Below are positions 6,387 through 31,338 of a DNA stretch of 31,338 nucleotides, piece after piece. The notes beneath the pieces are model-generated. The model did not search any database, had not been told where the DNA came from, and saw only the letters and a list, made by a program, of their open reading frames with translations. The stretch comes from Halanaerobiales bacterium (GTDB lineage: Bacteria; Bacillota_F; Halanaerobiia; DY22613), in contig JAGMES010000041.1 in NCBI GenBank assembly GCA_023128035.1, positions 1 to 31,338 of the forward strand, in the 5' to 3' direction. The position numbers and the translations under genes are program-made. Position 1 is the stretch's first letter. Each line of letters opens with the position of its first letter.

Positions 6387-7302
6387 AATTCAACCCTTCT
6401 TTCAAAGCAAGATGAACTATTCCCTGAGATTTTTTAAGTAACCCTTTTGCTTCAGCTACATCTACTCCACATTTGATCATCACAATCGCAGTTTTAACAT
6501 CATTAGCTGCAGAAACTAGAGCCTGATCTGCTACCTCATAATCACATCCAGTAGCAGTCATAATAATCCACTTACCCCGTTCGGCTAACTTTTGATTCGA
6601 AACCTTAACCCCTACCATCAGATTACTATAGACTTTACCCATTTTAATCATCGTTGTAGTAGAGATCATATTTAAAACCAATTTCTGTGCAGTTCCTGCT
6701 TTCATCCTGGTCGAACCTGTAATAACTTCTGGACCCACCACGGGAACAATAGCTACATCAGCCAATTCATTCATTGAAGCCTCTTGATTGCATGTCAAGG
6801 CAATAGTACCTGCTCCCACTTCTTTCCCCTTCTTTATTGCACCAATAGCATAAGGAGTCCGACCACTAGCCGCAATGGCAAAAACCACATCGAGATCGGT
6901 TAGATTGGCTTTTTCAAGATCAGTAAAAGCCTCTATTTCCTGATCTTCTGCCCCCTCCTTTGCCTGAATAAATGCGTTTGCTCCACCTGCTAATATCCCC
7001 ATAATTTGATTTGAATCAACTCCAAATGTAGGAGGGCATTCTACTGCATCTAAAATCCCTAATCGACCACTAGTACCAGCACCAACATAGATGAGTCGAC
7101 CACCTTTTTGCATTCTCTCCACAATCATATCCACCGCTTGACTGATGACTGGAATTACCTCTCCTACCCTCTCAGCCACGAGACGATCTTCTTGATTTAT
7201 CATTTTTAAAATCCCTGCAGTGGATTCTTGATCAATATTTAGAGTCTTAGAATTACGAGTTTCTGTAGTTAATTTAGTTATTTCCTTTGCAACCTGATTC
7301 AT
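6376..7302 (-). CDS. murQ: N-acetylmuramic acid 6-phosphate etherase
   Basis: 308 residues, the normal family length. It cleaves the lactyl ether of MurNAc-6-P to give GlcNAc-6-P and D-lactate. The SIS sugar-isomerase fold is shown by 'RLIYVGAGTSGRLGILDAVE' (about 69-88, with the conserved Glu) and 'VFAIAASGRTPYAIGA'. 'GPEVITGSTRMKAGTAQKL' is the MurQ-specific block, and the C-terminal helices are complete. The start ATG has GGAGG six bases upstream and overlaps the nagZ stop as ATGA. It sits between nagZ and anmK, so it receives MurNAc-6-P from both the AnmK and MurK-like branches. Confidence 0.96.
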   Translation of the reverse strand: MNQVAKEITKLTTETRNSKTLNIDQESTAGILKMINQEDRLVAERVGEVIPVISQAVDMIVERMQKGGRLIYVGAGTSGRLGILDAVECPPTFGVDSNQIMGILAGGANAFIQAKEGAEDQEIEAFTDLEKANLTDLDVVFAIAASGRTPYAIGAIKKGKEVGAGTIALTCNQEASMNELADVAIVPVVGPEVITGSTRMKAGTAQKLVLNMISTTTMIKMGKVYSNLMVGVKVSNQKLAERGKWIIMTATGCDYEVADQALVSAANDVKTAIVMIKCGVDVAEAKGLLKKSQGIVHLALKEGLNCGE

Positions 7303-8906
7303 AACACACCTCCAGGAATTGTTATCGGAAGTTCTCCACTGGCCGATATTTCGCCGGCAATCACTTGAACTGCCCCTTCTAAAGAATATTCATTAAAATC
7401 ATAAGTTGTCAGATAAACCTTTGCCTCTGAAAGCACCTGTAAATCATATGGATTACGGATTGCTAATACCACCAGATTTGAATTTGTTCGGGCCAGCTCA
7501 TTGATTAACTTAGCTTGCTCAGGATTTTTACTGGCATAGAAAGCACTAAAAATAATAAGATCCTTATTTTGAACCCGTCTTTTTACTTCTTCCATCTCTT
7601 TGTCATCTGGATTCATAGTAATAGTTATCGCTTCCACATTTTGATACTTCTCTTTAAATGCACGTATCAGAACTTCTTTAGGACCACCATCTCTTTCTTC
7701 AACAATGGTTAACGCTCCCGCTTCAGGGCAGATAACAATCACATCTTTATTTTCAGCAGGTATAGCTGGGATCAAACCCTGTTCGTCTTTTACTAAAGTC
7801 ACCACTCGCTGGCCGATCTTTCTGGCGAGCTTGCGATGTTCTTCTGAACCAACCATCGCCAATTGTTCCTGACTTCCCCATTCTTCATTCGCAATTTTTT
7901 CTTTCAACTTAAGAATTCGAGTTATTGATTGATCTATCCGTTCTTCGGTTAATCGCCCTGATTCCACAGCCTGTAAAATCCCCTCATAAGATGCTATCTG
8001 AACATCAAAAGTATGAGAGATCAATACCTGATCAGCGCCTGCTTCTATAGCTCTAATAGCCGCCTCTTCAGGGCCAAAATTATCAGCAATTGCTTTCATC
8101 TCCATACAATCAGTTATAATCAATCCATCATAACCCATCTTATCACGTAAGAGATCAGTCAATACTCTTTTTGAAAGGGTTCCAGGTATTCCAGGCTCTG
8201 GCTCAAAAGCTGGAAAGATCACATGAGCTGACATAATTGCTGCCAGACCAGATTTAATTGCATTTTGAAATGGTTTTAGCTCAACTCTCTCCAATCTTTC
8301 CTTATCATGAGGAACAATAGCTAAGGCAAGATGAGAATCAAAAGCTGTATCACCATGTCCCGGGAAATGTTTTCCGCAGGCAATTACTCCTTCTTCTTGA
8401 AGACCATTAATATAAGCAATTCCAAGCTGACTAACCAATTCTGGGTCTTCACCATATGAACGAATTCCAATAACGGGATTCTCTGGATTATTATTCACAT
8501 CTAATACGGGAGCTAAATTAAAATTCACTCCAAAAGCTTTTAATTCACAAGCAACAACCTTCGCCATCTCATATACTGCTTTAGGATCATTTATAGCTCC
8601 CAAAGCCATATTTCCCGGGAAAACCGTTGCATCTTTTGATAAACGACTAACAAGACCACCTTCCTGATCTATAGAAATAAATAATGGAAATCCACTTGAA
8701 GATTCTTTTGCTAAATTTTGAAATTCTGTTGATGTCTTTGCTAATTGGTCATTTGATTTTACGTTTCTGCTAAAATAAATAATTCCGCCTAAATTATTCT
8801 TAATGATAAGCCTCGTCATCTCTGATGTTATCTCTGTTCCAGGAAAGCCAACCATTAAAAGCTGACCTATCTTTTCCTCCAAGGTCATCTCCTGTAATCT
8901 TTTCAC
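7299..8906 (-). CDS. nagZ: Beta-N-acetylglucosaminidase NagZ (GH3)
   Basis: 535 residues. The GH3 TIM-barrel (about residues 1-340) has 'FISIDQEGGLVSRL' (about 76-89), 'KHFPGHGDTAFDSHLAL' (179-195, with the Asp190-Ser-His192 dyad typical of NagZ) and 'GLIITDCMEMKAI', where Asp266 is the expected nucleophile. Residues about 370-535 form the second alpha/beta domain found in the Bacillus type and absent from the short proteobacterial NagZ. It releases GlcNAc from GlcNAc-MurNAc units. No signal peptide is visible (MKRLQEMTLEEKIGQ), so it should be cytoplasmic, unlike secreted B. subtilis NagZ. The start is GTG with GGGGAG ten bases upstream. It lies 21 bases after the amiE-like gene. Confidence 0.92.
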   Translation of the reverse strand: MKRLQEMTLEEKIGQLLMVGFPGTEITSEMTRLIIKNNLGGIIYFSRNVKSNDQLAKTSTEFQNLAKESSSGFPLFISIDQEGGLVSRLSKDATVFPGNMALGAINDPKAVYEMAKVVACELKAFGVNFNLAPVLDVNNNPENPVIGIRSYGEDPELVSQLGIAYINGLQEEGVIACGKHFPGHGDTAFDSHLALAIVPHDKERLERVELKPFQNAIKSGLAAIMSAHVIFPAFEPEPGIPGTLSKRVLTDLLRDKMGYDGLIITDCMEMKAIADNFGPEEAAIRAIEAGADQVLISHTFDVQIASYEGILQAVESGRLTEERIDQSITRILKLKEKIANEEWGSQEQLAMVGSEEHRKLARKIGQRVVTLVKDEQGLIPAIPAENKDVIVICPEAGALTIVEERDGGPKEVLIRAFKEKYQNVEAITITMNPDDKEMEEVKRRVQNKDLIIFSAFYASKNPEQAKLINELARTNSNLVVLAIRNPYDLQVLSEAKVYLTTYDFNEYSLEGAVQVIAGEISASGELPITIPGGVL

Positions 8907-8927
8907 AATATTTTTACTCCCCTTTCG

Positions 8928-10049
8928 CTACTCCTTAATCAATGAACTAAAAATCATATTATGAATTAAAGATCTAAAACGTATATGTTTTGTTGTACAG
9001 GTTGGATGAACCCGATTTGTTAAGAGAATTACTGATAAATTATACGTAGGATCTATCCAGATCGAAGTTCCAGAAAATCCTGTATGTCCAAACGCCTGCC
9101 CCGAAATCAGATCGCCACCAGAGGAAAGCTCACCAGGTTTATCCCATCCCAGACCACGATTTCCACCTAAAATTTTTCGCGTATAGTTTTGAACCATTTT
9201 TTCTATGGTTACTGGACTTAAAATATGCTTATTATTAAACCTACCTCCATTCAATAACATCTGAGTAAAATGGTATACATCTTTAGCTGTTGAAAAAATC
9301 CCTGCATGCCCTGTGACACCACCCATAGCAAAACAATTACCATCATGAACTTTACCAAGAATTAATCCTTCACGGCGATTTACACCCTCAGTATCCTCTA
9401 ACATATTCATTTCATAATCATTATTAAATTCTGTAGCCGCAATCCTGGAAAAAATATGTTTTGGAGGATTGTAATATGTATCTATCATTCTTAGTGGTTT
9501 AAAAATTTCTTTCTTTGCTACTTCATCAAGAGGTTTTTTACAAACTTTTTGAATTAATTCGCCAAGAAGAATAAATCCTAAATCACTATATACTACTTTA
9601 GTTCCTGTTGGGTAATCTAATTCTAGATTTTTAATATATTCAATCCGCTCTTGATTATTTTCACCCTTAAGATAAAGAGGCGCCCAGGCTGCCAGACCAG
9701 AGCAGTGGGTCAAAAGATGCCGCACCCGAACATTCTCTTTTCCATTAACCGCAAAACCAGGAAAAAAAAGATCAACTGGATCATCAAGGCGAATCATCCC
9801 TTTTTCAATCAATTGCATCACTAAAGTTGTAGTAACAACCACTTTAGTCAACGAGGCTAAATCATAAATCGTATCTTTCATCACAGGGCGAGAATTTGGC
9901 GTAATCTCTGCAGAACCAAATTTCTCATAATATAAAATTTCCTGTTGATTCCCAACTAAAAGAACTCCACCAGGAAATACACCATCATTAACTCCCCACT
10001 GCATAATTTTATCCCAACTTTTTGCTCTAGAAAGATCTAATTTCATCAT
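8928..10049 (-). CDS. Serine hydrolase of the beta-lactamase/AmiE type, probable N-acetylmuramyl-L-alanine amidase
   Basis: 373 residues of the class C beta-lactamase-like (S12) fold. The active-site SxxK is Ser66-Leu-Thr-Lys69 in 'DLASLTKVV', the second motif is Tyr153-Ser-Asp in 'VVYSDLGFILLGELIQ', and the third is 'FGHTGFSGTSIW' near the C-terminus. In Bacillus subtilis the homologous position next to nagZ and namZ is held by amiE, an S12-type amidase that strips the peptide from MurNAc; I infer the same job here from fold and context. No signal peptide is present, so it should act in the cytoplasm. Two ATGs (10049, 10046) follow GGAGG; the second has the better spacing. The start overlaps the end of the murK-like gene by about 20 bases. 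An alternative is a generic esterase. Confidence 0.78.
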   Translation of the reverse strand: MMKLDLSRAKSWDKIMQWGVNDGVFPGGVLLVGNQQEILYYEKFGSAEITPNSRPVMKDTIYDLASLTKVVVTTTLVMQLIEKGMIRLDDPVDLFFPGFAVNGKENVRVRHLLTHCSGLAAWAPLYLKGENNQERIEYIKNLELDYPTGTKVVYSDLGFILLGELIQKVCKKPLDEVAKKEIFKPLRMIDTYYNPPKHIFSRIAATEFNNDYEMNMLEDTEGVNRREGLILGKVHDGNCFAMGGVTGHAGIFSTAKDVYHFTQMLLNGGRFNNKHILSPVTIEKMVQNYTRKILGGNRGLGWDKPGELSSGGDLISGQAFGHTGFSGTSIWIDPTYNLSVILLTNRVHPTCTTKHIRFRSLIHNMIFSSLIKE

Positions 10050-19431: not shown

Positions 19432-20394
19432 TCAACTAATTAACCGACTATAATACTGATAATCTGCTAAGTATTCCTCAGCCTCGCCACTTTCCAAAAA
19501 ATTATTTAATGCATATAACTCATAGCTTACTTCTGCGGCTTCTGAAAAGAGTTCTTTTTCGATAAAAGTAGATACTGCTAATTCAAGGTAATTAATCGAA
19601 TTTGTATATTCGCCTTTCTTTTTATACCATAGGCCACGAATATATAAATTCCATGCTAATGTTAACTCATGATAATTCGTCCGTTTAATTACAATTTTTT
19701 CAGCTTTATCTAAATACTTTTCAGCCTCATCTAATTTAAATTCGACAATCATTATCTGTGCAATCTCGTTATAAACCATGGCTTTTTGCTGCTCAGTATC
19801 TGCCCATTCGAGAGCTGAATTTAAATATTTTAAACATTCTGAAAATCTTCCTTTTTCAAAAATAATCAAGGCCAGATTATAGTAAATCTGAAATTGATCC
19901 CCTCCAAACTTAGGTGTAAGTAATTTTTGAGCTTCCATAAAAAGCTCAAAAGCTTCATTTAAATATTTTTTTGAAGTATACTTAGTTAGATAATAATATG
20001 TAATACCTAGATTAATCATTCCCTTACATTTAGCCCACTCCACATCTGATTCTATCATATCTTTAAAAATTGATTCTGCTTCTTCATATTTACCAGTACG
20101 AACTAAGGCAATACCCTTTTTTTCTAAAATTTCTAATAACGTTTGTTCATAAAGTATATCTCGATTCACCAATAAATCATCCAAAAGTTCTAATGCTTTC
20201 TGATAACGATATTTTTTAAAACACTCATTGGCTAATCTCATTTTAACCTGCACAGCAATATCATCTATATCCTCTGCAGCTATAATAGATTCAAATAATA
20301 TTCTTATATCGGCACCATATAATCGCTGTAAATTTTCATGCTCTTCACTATTTTTAATCCTTTTTGATAATTCTTCTTTTAATTTTTTGAACAT
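19432..20394 (-). CDS. Stand-alone TPR-repeat protein
   Basis: 320 residues from the ATG at 20394, which has GAGGTG six bases upstream; an earlier in-frame ATG (20424) abuts its AAGGAG and lies almost at the predicted transcription start. The protein is wholly helical. Tetratricopeptide-type pairs recur about every 37-40 residues, for example 'LANECFKKYRYQKALELLDDLL', 'KYEEAESIFKDMIES', 'NLALIIFEKGRFSECLKYL', 'NEIAQIMIVEFKLDEAEKYL' and 'IRGLWYKKKGEYTNSINYLE', some interrupted by spacer. No helix-turn-helix, signal or enzyme motif is present. The C-terminal 'EEYLADYQYYSRL' resembles in pattern the end of the TPR protein at 30413-31338. No small peptide gene follows it. Probably a protein-protein or peptide-binding scaffold. 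Confidence 0.8.
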   Translation of the reverse strand: MFKKLKEELSKRIKNSEEHENLQRLYGADIRILFESIIAAEDIDDIAVQVKMRLANECFKKYRYQKALELLDDLLVNRDILYEQTLLEILEKKGIALVRTGKYEEAESIFKDMIESDVEWAKCKGMINLGITYYYLTKYTSKKYLNEAFELFMEAQKLLTPKFGGDQFQIYYNLALIIFEKGRFSECLKYLNSALEWADTEQQKAMVYNEIAQIMIVEFKLDEAEKYLDKAEKIVIKRTNYHELTLAWNLYIRGLWYKKKGEYTNSINYLELAVSTFIEKELFSEAAEVSYELYALNNFLESGEAEEYLADYQYYSRLIS

Positions 20395-20436
20395 GAGCGA
20401 CACCTCTGTTAATTTTTTTAGCATCTCCTTATATCT

Positions 20437-23636: not shown

Positions 23637-26412
23637 CTAATTTAGTTTTTTCTCTATCATTTCTTCATACAATTCTTCCAAAGCCTTAAATCTTGCTTCC
23701 ATATCTTCTGAATATCTTTTAAGTATCTCTTTTAATTTTTCTAAAAAACTATCATGCAATGCAGGGTCTGTTTTTCTTTTTAGGTTAATCTCTTTTCTCC
23801 AACCCCAGCAAGATTAACACTTTCATCTTTATATCTATGTCTTATTCTTGCTTGTATGTGTCCAAAGGCCTTCATACCAACCGTGTACTTTACATCAATA
23901 TCAAAGTTGATAAGTATATCAATGCTGGCAAGATATCTTTTATAATATACGTCAAATCGTGCCCTGGTTTGTACATTTTCACAAACCTCAATACACTTTT
24001 CTAATACTTCATACTGTTTGATCGGGTCTTTAATTTTATACAAAACATAATCTTCTATTTTGGCTACACCTTGATCTACGAATAAATTAATAAGTCTATT
24101 ATATCTATCTCTGAGAATTGGTTTTTCTGTATTAATATCAGCTAAAGCTCTAACTTCATCACCACTGTAAACACGCAAAGTTTCTGCAAGATGACCCGAA
24201 ATTCCTACATAATCAACTATGTAACCTGTCTTTTTATTTTTATAGGTTCTATTAACTCTAGTTATCGCCTGGAAAAGAGTATGTTCTTTCATAATCTTTT
24301 CCAAATACATAACCTGCTCTACTGGTGCATCAAAGCCTGTTAGAAGTCGGCTACAGACTATCAATATACCAATACTTGTTTCTGGCTTGTCGTAGTTATA
24401 TTCTTTCTTGAAGTTACTAACAGCATTTAATCTTTTTGATTCCTTTGATAGCCTTGTCATATCAGAAGGCTCGTTTACTTCATTAGAAATGACTACCGCG
24501 GTTTTTAGAAACTTTAATTTTTTTATTAATTCATCATCTTTCATGTAGGCATTTTCAAACTCGATAATCTTTTCTTTAATGGCTTCGTCTAGATAATTTT
24601 TATATTTTACTGTAGCAATTCTTGATACACATACGACCTGAGCCTTGAACCCGTTTTTTAAGATTTCGCTGGAGTAATGAGCAATAATATCCTTTGAAAC
24701 GGTCTTTATGTGGTCATCACTTTCAAGAAAATCTCTGTAGGTTCCATATCTTTTATTGATTTCTTCGATCTCTTTTTCTGTCTTATTCTTAAATAGTTCA
24801 TCAAATTCAAAGTCAAACTGAGCTTCTTTAACTATCTTAATATTATCTTTTCTGCCTATGTATAATATTTGTAAAGTAGCCCCATCCTTCACAGATTCTT
24901 TAGCTTTATATTCATCTATATATTCACCACCAAAAATATCTATAGTCTTCTTTTTATGTCTTTCAGTTATAAGTGGTGTACCTGTAAAGGCTATCATTGT
25001 AGATTTTGGGAACGCCTTAAATAAGTTTCCTGCGAGTCCAAAAGGATTATTTTGTGTTCTATGGGATTCATCAATTAAAATAAGTATTCTTTCAGATTCA
25101 TTTACTGTACCAAGTTCCTCTATTTCTGGCAGCATATCTTTTTCTATTATTCCAGATTCAATCAAGCTATTGGCAAGTTTTTTCTCCTGTATCTTATCGC
25201 CAAACTTATGCATCATTACTAGAGTAAGGTTTGAACTATTTCCTGATAGCTTGGGTTTTAGTTGATTTGCTCTGTCAACATAGTGTACGGTTTCTCCAGT
25301 AAGTTTAGCAGTTTCACCTAGCTGTTCTTCAAGGTCTGTTCTATCATTTACCATGATAATCTTATAATCCTTTAGTTTGTCCATAAAACGCATCTGTCTT
25401 ACTAAAAAGACCATAGTAAAGCTTTTTCCTGAACCTTGAGTATGCCATATGACACCGCTTCTATCTAAGTAAGTATCTCCTCTAAGCAGTTTATCAATGA
25501 TCTTTTGGACTGCTCTAAATTGCTGGTATCTACAAACAATTTTAACTTCTTTTTTAGCTTCTATTGGTTTAAACATGGTAAAATGCTTTACTATCTTTAA
25601 TAAGTTCTCTTTATTTAGCATTCCCTGTATAAGGGTTTCTTGAGAACGCACCTTACCTAGTGGAGCATCAAAGATTTTATACTTCTTTGGATATATACTC
25701 TTCCATTCCAAATAATGTTCATAATCAGATGAAATAGTTCCTACCCTTGCTTTCTCTCCATAGGTTGAGATCATAAATTGATTATAATAGAAAAGTGCTT
25801 CTTCTCCTTCTTTTTCTCTTTTTCCTTCTGTATTTAATCTTCTGTTTTGGTATCTTAGTAATTGTCTTATCCCTTCTTCCATAGCATCTGAAGCAAAGGA
25901 AGATGGTAGTTTGCACTCAACAACCACCAGTGGGATACCATTTACAAATAGTACAATGTCAGGTATTATGAATTTTTTTGCTGTTCCTACTGTATCTATT
26001 CTAAATTGATTGATCGCAAGAAACTCATTGTTTTTTGGAGTTTCAAAATCAATGAGTTTAACGGCAGGATTTTCCTGCCCTGTGATCTCATTTTTATCTA
26101 CTCTTGGTTTTGTACCTATTAATAAATCTGTGATTGCTTTGTTGTGTTCGAGGGGGTTTTGAAAATTTGTCTTTGTAATCATGTTATATAGTTCATCAAG
26201 TTGTTTGTGAGCCATTCTATTCCTTCATCTGTTGTGTTAATTTTCTTAACCCACTTTTTAAACTCTTTTTTTATGACTATCTCTCTAAAGTTATCACGTA
26301 GACTATCTTTAGGGTTTTGTGGTATACATTTTTCCCCATGATTTATGATTGTCCAGTTTAAGTCTTTGAGCTGATCTAAAAATGGTTTTTCAACCAATAG
26401 ATATTCAGTCAT
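23637..26412 (-). pseudogene. hsdR: Type I restriction endonuclease subunit R, disrupted
   Basis: The gene starts at ATG 26412 (GGGGAG five bases upstream), 'MTEYLLVEKPFLDQLKDLNW'. After about 65 codons a one-base deletion in an A-rich run near 26220 shifts the frame: the first frame stops at 26179 and the second resumes with 'KQLDELYNMITKT'. The rest has the nuclease motif 'PDIVLFVNGIPLVVVECK', Walker A 'TQGSGKSFTMVFLV', 'ILIDESHRTQ' and 'AFTGTPLI', then the helicase domain. Near 23780, after 'NLAGVGEK', the frame ends early. A further C-terminal stretch, 'DPALHDSFLEKLKEILKRY', continues in another frame to a TAG at 23637, so part of the C-terminal helical domain was deleted out of frame. 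The motor motifs survive but no full-length product is possible. Confidence 0.9.
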
Positions 26413-26435
26413 ATAATCTCCCCTTTTTATACACC

Positions 26436-27649
26436 TCAATCCTCTGTTTTTACTCTTACTTTTCCAGTTAGCAAATCTTCCATAAGTCCTGCTTTTAGTT
26501 TTTTGAGTTTTTGCAGGTATTGCTCTTCTTTTTTGATGAGTTGGTCTTGTTTCATTAAAATTTTTCCTATTTCTTTTCTTTCATTTTCTTTCGGCAAAGT
26601 AATTATAATACTTTCTATTTGTCCACCACTTATATTTGGTGGATCAGTACCTAAAATGTTTAATTCTATTTGCCTAATTGAATTTTCGTATTGAATGCTA
26701 TAGTATAAAAAATATCTATCATTTTCATCATTAAACTCAAATTTCCCTACTCTTTAATTTAACATAGCTGGTGCATCACGTAAACTTAGAAATGATATTT
26801 TTAAATTTCTACCTATTAGTGGTCGTGTCATTGCGATAACAATATCATTCTCTCTCAAAATATAATCAAAAAACTTGTCCATAAATGAGATAGGTAAATA
26901 AGAAATTGCATCCCACTTTACCTTGTTGAATCCAACATTTGCTATTTTTAGCCACCTTGCACCATTTTCACTTGAGTTTTCACTAGAAAAAGCATATCCA
27001 CCAACTAATCTAGATAAATTTTTAATAGTCCCTACTCCCCAATCCTTCGGTATCCTACCAACACCTTCTACTTCCTTAAATTCTGTTTCGTTGGCCCATT
27101 TACCATCCTTAATCCTTATCTTCCCTGTAAGAAGGTCATTCATAAGACCACTTTTTATCTTTTTATATTTTTCTATTGTTTGTTCAGTTTTTTCTATGTT
27201 TTGGTCTAGAGTTGAGAGTATTTTTGCTATTTTAGTTTGTTCTTTATTTGATTTAGGTATAACTAATGATACTGATTCTATAGTAACTGCACTTAAACTT
27301 GGTACACCAGACGCTTCATTGTACTTAATCCAATTAATTGTACAAAATTTATAATATATCCATAATGGTACATACTCTTTTTTATATCACTATAAAATAA
27401 AGTATCAATTGTCCAAAAAGGAATGTTTATATATTGTGGTTTATTAATTGTGCCCTTTCTCCCAATTAAAACAGATTCTTTCTTATATAAAGGTTTTTTT
27501 GACCATCCTATTTGACCTCCAGAGCCTAAAATAGGATATTTCCCTTTACTATCTTCTACTTCTTTTTGACTTTTACCATGTTTAATTTTTAATAGTTCTC
27601 CAATTTTTTTCTCTTCCCATCCTTCAGGTATATTTCTTACCTCTTCCAC
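26436..27649 (-). pseudogene. hsdS: Type I restriction-modification specificity subunit S, disrupted
   Basis: GTG start at 27649 with GGGGGTGA upstream, 15 bases after hsdM. The first recognition domain begins 'IPEGWEEKKIGELLKIKHGK' and runs to about 27355, where a one-base deletion shifts the frame. In the other frame the expected 'INWIKYNEASGVPSLSAV' follows. The central conserved helix ('LSTLDQNIEKTEQTIEKYKK', then 'GLMNDLLTGK') and the second recognition domain come next. At 26754-26756 a TAA stands where related proteins have Gln in 'AMLNQRVGKF', an apparent CAA to TAA change. The same frame then stays open to the second conserved helix and 'GLMEDLLTGKVRVKTED' before a TGA at 26436. Two independent lesions, so no functional S subunit. 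Confidence 0.9.
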
Positions 27650-27664
27650 ATTATCACCCCCAAC

Positions 27665-29990
27665 CTATACTGCATCATATCCAAGTTCTTTTAAGAAGTC
27701 ATTTAACTCATTTCTTACCGTTTCTCTTTCTTCCAATATCCAATTAAGGGATGCTTTATAATTATCCCACAGATTTTCTATCATTCTTACAATGCTTTGA
27801 AGTTCATCTTGTAAGAATGAATTCATAATTTCAATTAATCTCCTATAAAATCTATCAAGTACTGTTGCTTCTACTTCGTCATCTATTACTTTATTGGATG
27901 CTCCTATAATCAAAAGGTTCAATACATTGTATTCTGACTCTTTCAGTTTTTTATCATCAAATAATTTCTCTAGTATTCCTTCTCTTTGATCTTTGATAAG
28001 CTCATATATCTTTTCATATCTTGATAATGTAAGCCCACTCACTTCTTTATTCTTAACTTTCTCTCTTAAGTCACTAAGTTGTAAATCAATTATTTCTCCC
28101 ATCGTTAAGAGGTTTGAAATCCAACCAGATGCTGCTATTGCCTTTAAATCATCCTTTATCTCATCATAGAAAGATACAAACACCCCTTCTAATTGATTTG
28201 TATCAAGGGATTCAAAAGAAATGAACGTATCTACAAAGGACTTAATTAGTTCATTTTTAACCTCTACCACATCTTTTACATCATCAAGATTGGATACTTT
28301 TATTTTTACACTTTGCCACCAGTCTAAGAATTCTTTGTTTATACTAACTCTTTTACCCCTTACACCTTCATCATTTTCGATAAAATCCTTTATATCTTCT
28401 TTTCTACTCATCTCATCTATAAACTCAAAGTATTTATCATTTTTTTCTTCAAACATTTTAAGAATATTAAAACCCTGTTTTTTACATAGCTCGATATTAT
28501 CATGAACTTCACTTTTTGGAACTCCACCATAAAGATGTCCTGTTACATCATTTTTTTCTGCATCGTCTGAATTATCTATATATCTTCTGATGTTAAGATT
28601 AAAGCCTTCCTTTTCTATCTCTTCTATTAATACAAGTCTAGAATACTTCTCTGTCTCTGCTTTATTATCATAAGTATGAACAATCTTTTGAATATCCTGT
28701 GGTCTTAATATATTCTGATTCTTTCCTTCTTTGTAGTCTTTATCGGCGTTAATAAACAATATTTCCTTTCTTTCTTTTGCCCCATTCATATTTATAACAA
28801 TTATACAAGCCGGTATCCCTGTTCCATAAAATAATCCAGATGGTAGTCCTACTATTGCTTCTATTAAACATCTATCATCTTTTGTAATAAGTCCTTCTCT
28901 TATATCCTTTTCTTCACCACCTCTAAAAAGAACACCATGAGGTAATATACATGCCATTTTACCATTCTCTTTAAGGGATGCTACCATGTGTTGCAAGAAC
29001 ATAAGGTCTGCCTTTTTACCACTCTCTGGAGTAAATCCAAATTCAAATCTTTCTTTATATTCCATCTCTTTTTTTGAATAATTCTGCGAAAAAGGTGGAT
29101 TTGCAATGACTCTATCAAATCTCTTTAACTCCCCTTTCTCATCAAAAAAGTGTGGATCGATAAGGGTATCTTCATTAGCTATATCAAACTTTACGATATC
29201 ATGAAGTATCATATTCATTTTACACATAGACCAGGTGGATCCAGCAAGCTCTTGACCATATAAAAACATATCCCTTGAATCTCCACCGTTTTCTTCAATA
29301 TAATATAAGCATACCACCAGAACCATAGGTAGGGTCATATATTTCGTGACCTTCTTCTGGTTTAATAATTTTAACTAAACAAGAAACTATTTCTGAAGGT
29401 GTATAAAATTCTCCGCCTTTTTTTCCAGCTGAACTTGCAAAATATTTAATAAGATACTCATAGGCAGCCCCCAACAAATCAGGTGATTCAAAATCTTCAT
29501 TCTTCATTGGAATATCGTTAAACACATTAATAAATTCTATCAATGTAGAGTCTTTCATAGAGGTCTTGCCTACTTTTTTAGTAAAATCTATGCCCTTTAA
29601 AACGCCTTCTAGCTTGTTAATATTCGCTTCTTCTATAGCAAATAATGCTTTATTTAATGCATCAGCTACATCTTTTTTAACATGGGCCAGCCCTTCATTT
29701 TTACCATCTTCAACATAATTCCATCTTGCATCTTCAGGAACAAAAAAGGTTTCCCTATATCTTTCAGGTTTTATTATCTGTCCCTCTATCTTTTCTTTAC
29801 TCCAACCAGCATCCTCATATTTTTTTCTTAACTCATTTTGCTTCTCCTGAAATTGATCCGATAATCTTTTTAAGAAAAACATACCAAAGATATATTCCTT
29901 ATATTCACTTGCCTCCATCTTACCCCTTAATACATCTGCTGCTTTAAATAATAGGCTTTCTAATTTTGCTAATGATAATTTACTGCTCAT
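27665..29990 (-). pseudogene. hsdM: Type I DNA methyltransferase subunit M, frameshifted
   Basis: The start is ATG 29990, with AAAGGAG eight bases upstream, '[20 protein letters not shown]'. The N-terminal HsdM helical domain is complete. The AdoMet-binding motif '[10 protein letters not shown]' is reached at about residue 227; the frame then runs into TGA at 29295. The other frame continues with '[19 protein letters not shown]', the catalytic 'VIANPPFSQNYSKKE' and the rest to 27665. The break lies in the short AT repeat 29296-29309 (two TTATA units); a lack of 2, 5 or 8 bases would explain it. Motif I and the NPPF motif are thus on separate products. Unless the frame can be restored by slippage, the methyltransferase is inactive. 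Confidence 0.9.
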
Positions 29991-30091
29991 AGATGTATCT
30001 CCTTTCAAAATAGCTACAGTCACCTTATATCTATTATTTATTTCTTCATTTGTTAGCTTTGTTCCTTTAACATAGCATAATTTGATTTTGG

Positions 30092-30126
30092 CAAAAAAAA
30101 ATAAGCAATTGATCAATTGCTTATTT
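30092..30126 (-). terminator. Perfect-palindrome terminator after the small exported-peptide gene
   Basis: A 28-base perfect palindrome (AAATAAGCAATTGA and its exact complement, 30099-30126) followed by eight T in the minus direction. It lies 97 bases past the TGA of the peptide gene but only three bases past the stop of the overlapping longer frame (30129). The hsdM gene begins about 100 bases further on. I see no clear promoter for it in that gap. Confidence 0.85.
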
Positions 30127-30223
30127 CACTATTTCCATGCTGTCCTTTTTGAATCATATACAGTAGCGCCTTTTGTTTCCTTTATTTCTAACTCAACTGC
30201 GAAAGTAGGGTTTATAACAAAAC

Positions 30224-30367
30224 TCAATCTCCAATAGGAACCCAAGGTCCACACATTACTATTTCTTCAGATTCCAAAACTGGTAAATCAGACCCTCCAG
30301 CTAATATAACACTTGAATTAATTAACAAACAAAAACAAATTAATACAAGACACATTATTTTTTTCAT
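30224..30367 (-). CDS. Small exported peptide, candidate quorum-sensing pro-peptide
   Basis: 47 codons, with an excellent ribosome site: AAAGGAGG seven bases before the ATG at 30367. It opens MKKIMCLVLICFCLLINSSV, a typical Sec signal with lysines and a hydrophobic core, and a likely cleavage after 'VILA'. A mature tail of about 24 residues remains, acidic in the middle and ending in 'EEIVMCGPWVPIGD'. It starts 45 bases after the stop of a TPR protein on the same strand and has no recognisable enzyme domain. Phr, PapR and NprX pro-peptides that pair with Rap, PlcR and NprR have this size, signal and position; the match is of architecture only. A second frame stays open past its stop (to 30129), so a lost base near 30225-30260 and an original length of about 79 residues are also possible. 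Confidence 0.6.
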   Translation of the reverse strand: MKKIMCLVLICFCLLINSSVILAGGSDLPVLESEEIVMCGPWVPIGD

Positions 30368-30412
30368 TCCTTTTCCTCCTTTCTTTATATTTATATTTCT
30401 TTTTATTACTTG

Positions 30413-31338
30413 CTAAGTCCTTCTTTCTAAATTATTTCTGTATTTCTCATATTCACTACGGTAAAATACATATTCAGATTCATCACCATATCTTAAAGAT
30501 TGTAAATACTTAAATAATGTTATCTCATATAACAGCTTCAAGCAATCTATATCTTGATCTCTACTGAATGCTAATTCAGCAAAAGCATAAGCCATATCCA
30601 AATTATCCATTTTAAAATAATATAACGCACTTCCATAAAGATTTCTATTCAATTCATCTAATTCATTTTTTTCATATAACCAATTCCAAGCTTTTTGTAA
30701 TAGTTCTATACCTAACTCAAATTTACCTGTATTAATATAAATAATTGCTATCTCATTCCATACATGCCCTATTGCATTCTCTATAATAAATTTTTTATTT
30801 TTAATCATAGTAAGTATTTTTAACGCTTCATGGTATTCTTCTTTTTCGACCAAAATATAAGCATAATTAAGCTTACAGGTTATTTCCAACTCAGTAAATT
30901 GAAAATTCTCTGACATTTTTAGCGCCTCATCAATATATCTTTTTGCTTCAACTAATTCATCAAATATTTCTGTAGTAATCTGTATTTGATTTAATTCTCT
31001 ATTAATTTTTTCCCCATCTATCTGTTTTTCTTTAAGTCTATTTTCAAGCCTTTTCATATTAATTCTATGATTTCTTTGCTTATACTTATAGATCAAAGAA
31101 ACAGCTACATTTATATATGTTTCAATAATTAATCTTACTACATCTTCTTTTTTAATTAAATCAATCTCTAATTCTAATTTTCTTTGTGCTAAACCTAAAG
31201 CATCCATAAAAAACCTTATTGCTTCGTCATACTCTCCAATATATCTTTTAGCATACCCCATAGCTTTATTTATTCTGATCTTTAAAATATTTTCTAATAT
31301 CAACTTTTTTTCGATACTTTCATAATAAAGATCACTTA
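30413..31338 (-). CDS. TPR-repeat protein, candidate RRNPP-type peptide-responsive regulator (5' part outside the window)
   Basis: The reading frame is open from the window's right edge to the stop at 30413, about 307 residues, so the true start lies outside and the TTG at 31303 is not needed as a start. The visible part is entirely helical, with TPR-type pairs such as 'MGYAKRYIGEYDEAIRFFMD', 'CKLNYAYILVEKEEYHEALK', 'NEIAIIYINTGKFELGIELL' and 'ALYYFKMDNLDMAYAFAELA'. The C-terminal 'SEYVFYRSEYEKYRNNLERR' looks like that of the TPR protein at 19432. If the missing 5' part encodes a helix-turn-helix, it would be of the PlcR/NprR type; otherwise Rap-like. It is followed 45 bases later by an exported-peptide gene. 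Confidence 0.75.
   Translation of the reverse strand, partial: SDLYYESIEKKLILENILKIRINKAMGYAKRYIGEYDEAIRFFMDALGLAQRKLELEIDLIKKEDVVRLIIETYINVAVSLIYKYKQRNHRINMKRLENRLKEKQIDGEKINRELNQIQITTEIFDELVEAKRYIDEALKMSENFQFTELEITCKLNYAYILVEKEEYHEALKILTMIKNKKFIIENAIGHVWNEIAIIYINTGKFELGIELLQKAWNWLYEKNELDELNRNLYGSALYYFKMDNLDMAYAFAELAFSRDQDIDCLKLLYEITLFKYLQSLRYGDESEYVFYRSEYEKYRNNLERRT

Follow-up and report, generated by a model that had tools for sequence, protein, structure and literature searches.

A tetratricopeptide repeat receptor and an adjacent secreted-looking propeptide as a probable RRNPP-type quorum-sensing pair in Halanaerobiales

We analyzed a 31,338-nucleotide (nt) stretch of DNA from a Halanaerobiales bacterium (contig JAGMES010000041.1; hereafter the window), at one end of which a gene for a tetratricopeptide repeat (TPR) protein is directly followed by a small open reading frame (ORF) for a secreted-looking peptide. 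The two very probably form an RRNPP-type quorum-sensing system, made up of a TPR receptor that lacks a helix-turn-helix (HTH) domain and its pro-signal. The gene pair recurs in relatives of the receptor, the peptides of these relatives have a common tail motif that is repeated within some precursors, and the predicted fold of the receptor is similar to that of Rap, NprR and AimR.

Results

The receptor and its propeptide gene

The order of the two genes, their spacing and the ribosome-binding site are as a preliminary description of the window had reported them (Table 1). The receptor gene runs off the window edge with 79 codons beyond it, and a protein search recovered the full-length receptor (P0001, 386 amino acids (aa), on a 31,628-base contig), which is identical to the window receptor at 306 of 307 residues across the common part and has 79 additional N-terminal residues. 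The Pfam families TPR_8 and TPR_12 match the window ORF over cut-off, and TPRs are the sole over-threshold Pfam matches of P0001. Pfam gave no HTH match in P0001 or in the homologues P0004 and P0014, and RapH_N is absent from the P0001 matches at E ≤ 0.1; the preliminary description had suggested seeking an N-terminal HTH or a Rap-like bundle beyond the window edge, and the full-length protein has no HTH and no RapH_N match.

The AlphaFold2 model of the receptor is all helical (pLDDT 88, pTM 0.86), with helices from residue 8 arranged in about nine helical pairs, all of them TPR. Besides Rap, NprR and AimR, the predicted fold resembles some eukaryotic TPR proteins, and the structural matches to AimR and NprR start past residue 100 of those chains. 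By sequence, the receptor assigns to none of Rap, NprR and AimR. A PDB profile search returned designed TPR proteins, MamA and CDC27, with RRNPP receptors absent from the matches up to an E of 10; PHROGs gave only weak matches (best E 0.0029), and NCBIfam gave none over cut-off.

Table 1. Features of the receptor–propeptide unit in the window.
Feature	Position	Strand	Basis
TPR receptor gene, C-terminal 307 codons	30413..31336	-	ORF, runs off window edge
Ribosome-binding site AGGAGG, 7 nt 5' of ATG	30375..30380	-	sequence
Propeptide gene, 47 codons, ATG start, MKKIMCLVLICFCLLINSSVILAGGSDLPVLESEEIVMCGPWVPIGD	30224..30367	-	ORF; 45 bases after TPR stop, same strand
Signal-peptide-like residues 1-23, KK then hydrophobic core	30299..30367	-	hydropathy proxy; cleavage point guessed
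Presumed mature signal region GPWVPIGD, approximate ends	30227..30250	-	motif common to peptides of paralogous receptors
A+U-rich hairpin and T-run, probable intrinsic terminator	30098..30127	-	fold -11.6 kcal/mol, z -3.4

The propeptide has a hydropathy proxy score of 3.4 (a proxy, not SignalP) and two Lys among its first ten residues, and its tail GPWVPIGD fits the pattern [GSD]PxxP[IVL]. Its sole sequence-level relative, P0015, for which the genomic context is lacking, is identical at 45 of 47 residues and differs at residues 29 and 46. In the RRNPP signature of PMC10075063, a TPR-bearing receptor of 250–500 aa is combined with a propeptide of 10–100 aa; the receptor here has TPRs and a length of 386 aa, and the 47-aa propeptide is directly adjacent. 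At its strict level the signature also asks for a Sec-type signal peptide; on this point the hydropathy proxy is clearly positive. The terminator proposed earlier as closing the unit is probable: the hairpin lies 96 nt past the peptide stop, and a consensus terminator scan, which wants three G-C pairs where this stem holds two, listed none.

Family-A relatives carry a common tail motif

The protein search yielded 13 further receptor homologues besides P0001, at 41–50% identity, one of which is annotated in Anoxybacter fermentans; 8 of the 14 homologues are without genomic context. Context was obtained for six receptors of this family (family A) besides that of the window: A. fermentans (G008) has one, and a Halothermothrix metagenome-assembled genome (MAG; G001) the other five. 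The copies at loci L001 and L003 are the same in sequence as P0004 and P0006, and those at L002 and L004 almost the same as P0005 and P0009, respectively.

The expectation of the preliminary description that homologues have a secreted small ORF downstream holds for four of the six relatives, whose signal-peptide-like ORFs bear a related motif; at a fifth, L001, the motif stands in a leaderless ORF, and the A. fermentans receptor (L020) has no such ORF. All five ORFs lie directly downstream and their tails fit [G/S/D]PxxP[I/V/L]. L002 has two tandem 61-aa peptide genes with the tails DPWVPIGVD and GPWVPVGDD. These copies differ in five codons, two of them synonymous (36 and 45) and three changing the amino acid (53, 58 and 60), and all the amino-acid differences fall inside the last nine residues. 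The 62-aa peptide at L003 ends in GPWVPVTDD and the 41-aa peptide at L009/L021 in SPTIPITDPWTTPISAIF. Two precursors contain the motif three or four times: the 67-aa peptide at L004 has three copies of GPTAPIEV and one of GPTAPIEA, and the 38-aa leaderless ORF at L001 has two copies of GPGLPLED and one of GPGLPPED. A processed signal would be expected to show both repeats within a precursor and change restricted to the tail.

The 3' end of the L020 receptor is unlike the rest of the family. An insertion sequence (7227..9016) with a transposase-like ORF and 22-nt terminal inverted repeats (7227..7248 and 8995..9016) starts 42 nt past the receptor stop, and just past it lies an rluD-like gene (named by eye) that also neighbours L004. 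Outside the transposase ORF, the receptor strand had no listed peptide ORF of at least 40 aa, and the peptide gene therefore appears to have been lost here, beside the insertion sequence. Except for the orthologous pair L004 and L020, no common neighbour was seen in the listed ORFs of the six loci. In a receptor tree, the window receptor did not group with support with the other receptors that have GPWVP peptides, so that the tree did not show co-divergence of peptide and receptor.

Small secreted-looking ORFs after TPR genes and after other ORFs

We counted downstream peptides by a fixed rule: an ORF of 30–110 aa starting between -110 and +62 from the stop, with a Shine-Dalgarno match of at least 5/6, a hydrophobic N-terminus and two or more Lys/Arg close to the start, the signal-peptide call being a hydropathy proxy, not SignalP. 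The TPR set comprised 55 distinct genes, two of them in the window and the rest taken from the matches in G001 and G008, together with three fragmentary genes and four additional members of a tandem array. Outside this count are L013-L015, which are weak matches from three other genomes, and another TPR-like ORF at L003 (11911..12867). The 120 control ORFs came from 13 longer sequences, after 22 TPR-like ORFs and ORFs ≤300 nt from a sequence end had been set aside. With thresholds set once the first positives were known, a small signal-peptide-like ORF follows 30 of the 55 TPR genes (20/38 in G001, 9/15 in G008 and 1/2 in the window) and 0 of the 120 non-TPR ORFs. An earlier, stricter rule was positive for 7 of 126 ORFs, all seven TPR genes. 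This recurring adjacency supports the RRNPP quorum-sensing layout that the preliminary description had proposed for the pair.

Five of the seven family-A genes are positive by the rule, the misses being L001 (leaderless) and L020. Among the other genes that the rule missed, secreted ORFs of somewhat lower strength occur at L036, L037 and L041. Tiny leaderless ORFs with GTG starts follow the TPR genes at L050/L073 (2208..2249, 13 aa, MRRNGPGWDDSDL, listed by a script filter) and L053/L074 (2352..2390, 12 aa, MRRITGPGLDED, read by eye), both with the same etf-like neighbours. At L069 a 116-aa repeat-rich, secreted-looking ORF lies upstream of the TPR gene. No peptide was recognised at the remaining 17 genes missed by the rule. 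In the tandem array of five TPR genes (L065 4218..9354, minus strand), only the gene transcribed first (8317..9354) has a small secreted ORF after it under this rule. A second TPR protein of the window (19432..20424, minus strand, 330 aa) was considered as a second pair and rejected, since no peptide follows it; nor does one follow the similar proteins at L017 and L011.

A wider set of TPR–peptide pairs and tandem-HTH genes

The Halothermothrix MAG has about 26 candidate TPR–peptide pairs and A. fermentans 10. Both genomes show a large expansion of TPR genes accompanied by secreted-looking small ORFs (e.g. L025-L064). Other tails among them include DPVWDDEPD, NPNWADEPD, DPAWDDEP, NWPDPDEN and GPWPDPDTDG, and the peptide codes can be written as [G/S/D]PxxP[I/V/L]x[D/E] for the window type and DPxWDDEP, NWPxPD and leaderless GPG[W/L]D for others. 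The precursor at L055 has many GPIEQP-like repeats.

When 51 TPR units were checked for HTH neighbours (four array genes counted as one), a tandem-HTH_3 protein of 169–183 aa (98 aa at L027) was found within 1.6 kb of 12 of them: L025 (=L018... neighbour L019), L027, L028, L045 (=L018), L051, L052, L059, L061, L062, L065, L068 and L070. The tandem-HTH gene is downstream and convergent in 11 of the 12 and upstream on the same strand at L028, and three units have a second such gene upstream. None of the seven family-A units has one nearby. A genome search with the tandem-HTH proteins gave 50 matches, and among 30 loci fetched, some of which overlap, a TPR-like ORF was present in 17 and absent from 13; the query had itself been derived from TPR neighbours. 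Where a tandem-HTH gene accompanies a TPR–peptide pair, usually in convergent orientation, it may be the detached DNA-binding half of a split three-gene quorum-sensing module. We regard it as an evenly balanced question whether HTH-less RRNPP receptors have multiplied in this lineage to give many pairs with peptide codes of their own, part of them TPR/peptide/HTH modules of this kind.

Distribution and surroundings

Among 59 genomes of the class, full-length family A was found only in G001 and G008, as was P0018 at E ≤ 1e-10. For the IMP dehydrogenase of the window (a gene named by eye), the best two of the 59 are G008, at 84% identity, and G001, at 80%. A single-sequence scan of genome contigs with the receptor gave no match, an alignment-based scan (A1) gave four loci, and a profile protein search gave 9 proteins, all already known from the first protein search. 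Viral contigs, a phage collection and a plasmid collection gave no match, and thus no sign of a mobile-element origin was seen in them.

Downstream of the pair, the window carries type I restriction-modification-like genes (23780..30116, minus strand; named by eye), of which the M and S genes are two ORFs each and look interrupted.

Discussion

By analogy with the RRNPP family, the receptor would be cytoplasmic, and the propeptide would be exported by Sec, cut down to a short piece of its C-terminus around GPWVPIGD and re-imported by an oligopeptide permease. The imported peptide would then bind the concave TPR groove and switch the receptor. Lacking a DNA-binding domain, the receptor would have to act through a protein partner, as do Rap of Rap-Phr, which acts on a response regulator such as Spo0F or ComA, and Rap of Rap(pLS20)-Phr-Rco; the partner may be a response regulator or else a distinct HTH regulator. 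With no common neighbour seen among the listed ORFs of six loci, apart from the L004/L020 pair, and no nearby tandem-HTH gene in family A, this partner is probably unlinked. G001 and G008 have one Spo0A each, and 11 and 9 oligopeptide-binding SBP_bac_5 matches, respectively.

A narrower version of this reading takes the receptor to be a Rap of the canonical kind, working as a phosphatase or as a blocker of response regulators. The receptor has the size and fold of a Rap and no HTH, and paralogue expansion together with peptide duplication is as in Rap-Phr (PMC5199041). We nevertheless consider so close an identity unlikely, because RapH_N stays under cut-off in G001 and G008 (best E 0.35 and 0.97) where a B. 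subtilis control is over it, P0001 itself has no RapH_N match, and the PDB sequence search returned no Rap.

Small secreted-looking peptides beside a helical protein could also be antimicrobial or toxin-like, with the TPR protein giving immunity or maturation, and the NCBIfam family FxSxx_TPR, a TPR partner of a peptide, does match below threshold (E 0.012 for P0004 and 0.32 for P0014; none for P0001). This is very unlikely, given tails that are short, acidic and in some precursors repeated, and given that no radical-SAM, lanthipeptide or dedicated transporter gene is evident near the six loci (neighbours judged by eye). It is likewise very unlikely that the small ORF encodes a membrane or structural micropeptide outside signalling, beside a general TPR scaffold: its hydrophobic N-terminus could anchor it in the membrane, and many TPR genes of G001 and G008 have no recognised peptide, but it is in the tail that the peptides of the paralogues are alike, the repeats occur and all the amino-acid change at L002 falls, and L001 retains the tail without a hydrophobic segment.

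NprR-NprX and AimR-AimP resemble the window pair in TPR fold and adjacent pro-signal. RopB is an HTH-bearing regulator of the Rgg type and differs in this from the receptors here, which have no HTH. The leaderless tiny ORFs by TPR receptors at L073 and L074, and the repeats at L001, are reminiscent of the leaderless communication peptides of the RopB-LCP system (PMC10518010). NprR and AimR both bear an N-terminal HTH (PMC10075063), unlike the window receptor. PlcR and Rgg are likewise receptors with an N-terminal HTH. Rap-Phr is similar in its HTH-less TPR receptor of comparable length, adjacent secreted pro-signal, several paralogues per genome and duplicated signal copies or genes (PMC5199041), the last also known in AimR, NprR and PlcR (PMC9765709). 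It differs in that the window receptor has no RapH_N match or detected sequence similarity, in the tail GPxxP[IVL]x[DE] as against Phr penta- and hexapeptides, and in occurring in Bacilli rather than Halanaerobiales. The nearest mechanism is that of Rap(pLS20)-Phr-Rco, where an HTH-less receptor acts on a separate repressor: the Rap of pLS20 binds Rco and frees it when the peptide is present (PMC7430634).

The suggestion in the preliminary description that the pair could be a new subfamily stands in part. It agrees with the peptide code, but an HTH-less candidate RRNPP subfamily of A. fermentans (subfamily 17) has already been published; like the other subfamilies it derives from RRNPP_detector (PMC10075063), and FoldTree assigns it to clan B, along with Rap, NprR and QssR (PMC12700828). 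The RRNPP_detector paper reports 21 novel candidate subfamilies, and Anoxybacter is not named in its main text (PMC10075063). Subfamily 17 shares the lack of an HTH and the lineage of the window receptor (PMC12700828); because the A. fermentans copy of the window family has no peptide, subfamily 17 more probably corresponds to another of the TPR groups described here. A limited full-text search of the RRNPP literature found no description of GPxxP signals or of a split TPR–peptide–HTH module.

These results point to peptide signalling that resembles Rap-Phr well beyond Bacillus, among the anaerobic Halanaerobiales. They define a testable signal family, in which the repeats within single precursors point to the mature peptide, and the sister families with a nearby tandem-HTH gene offer a way to ask how HTH-less RRNPP receptors reach their targets.
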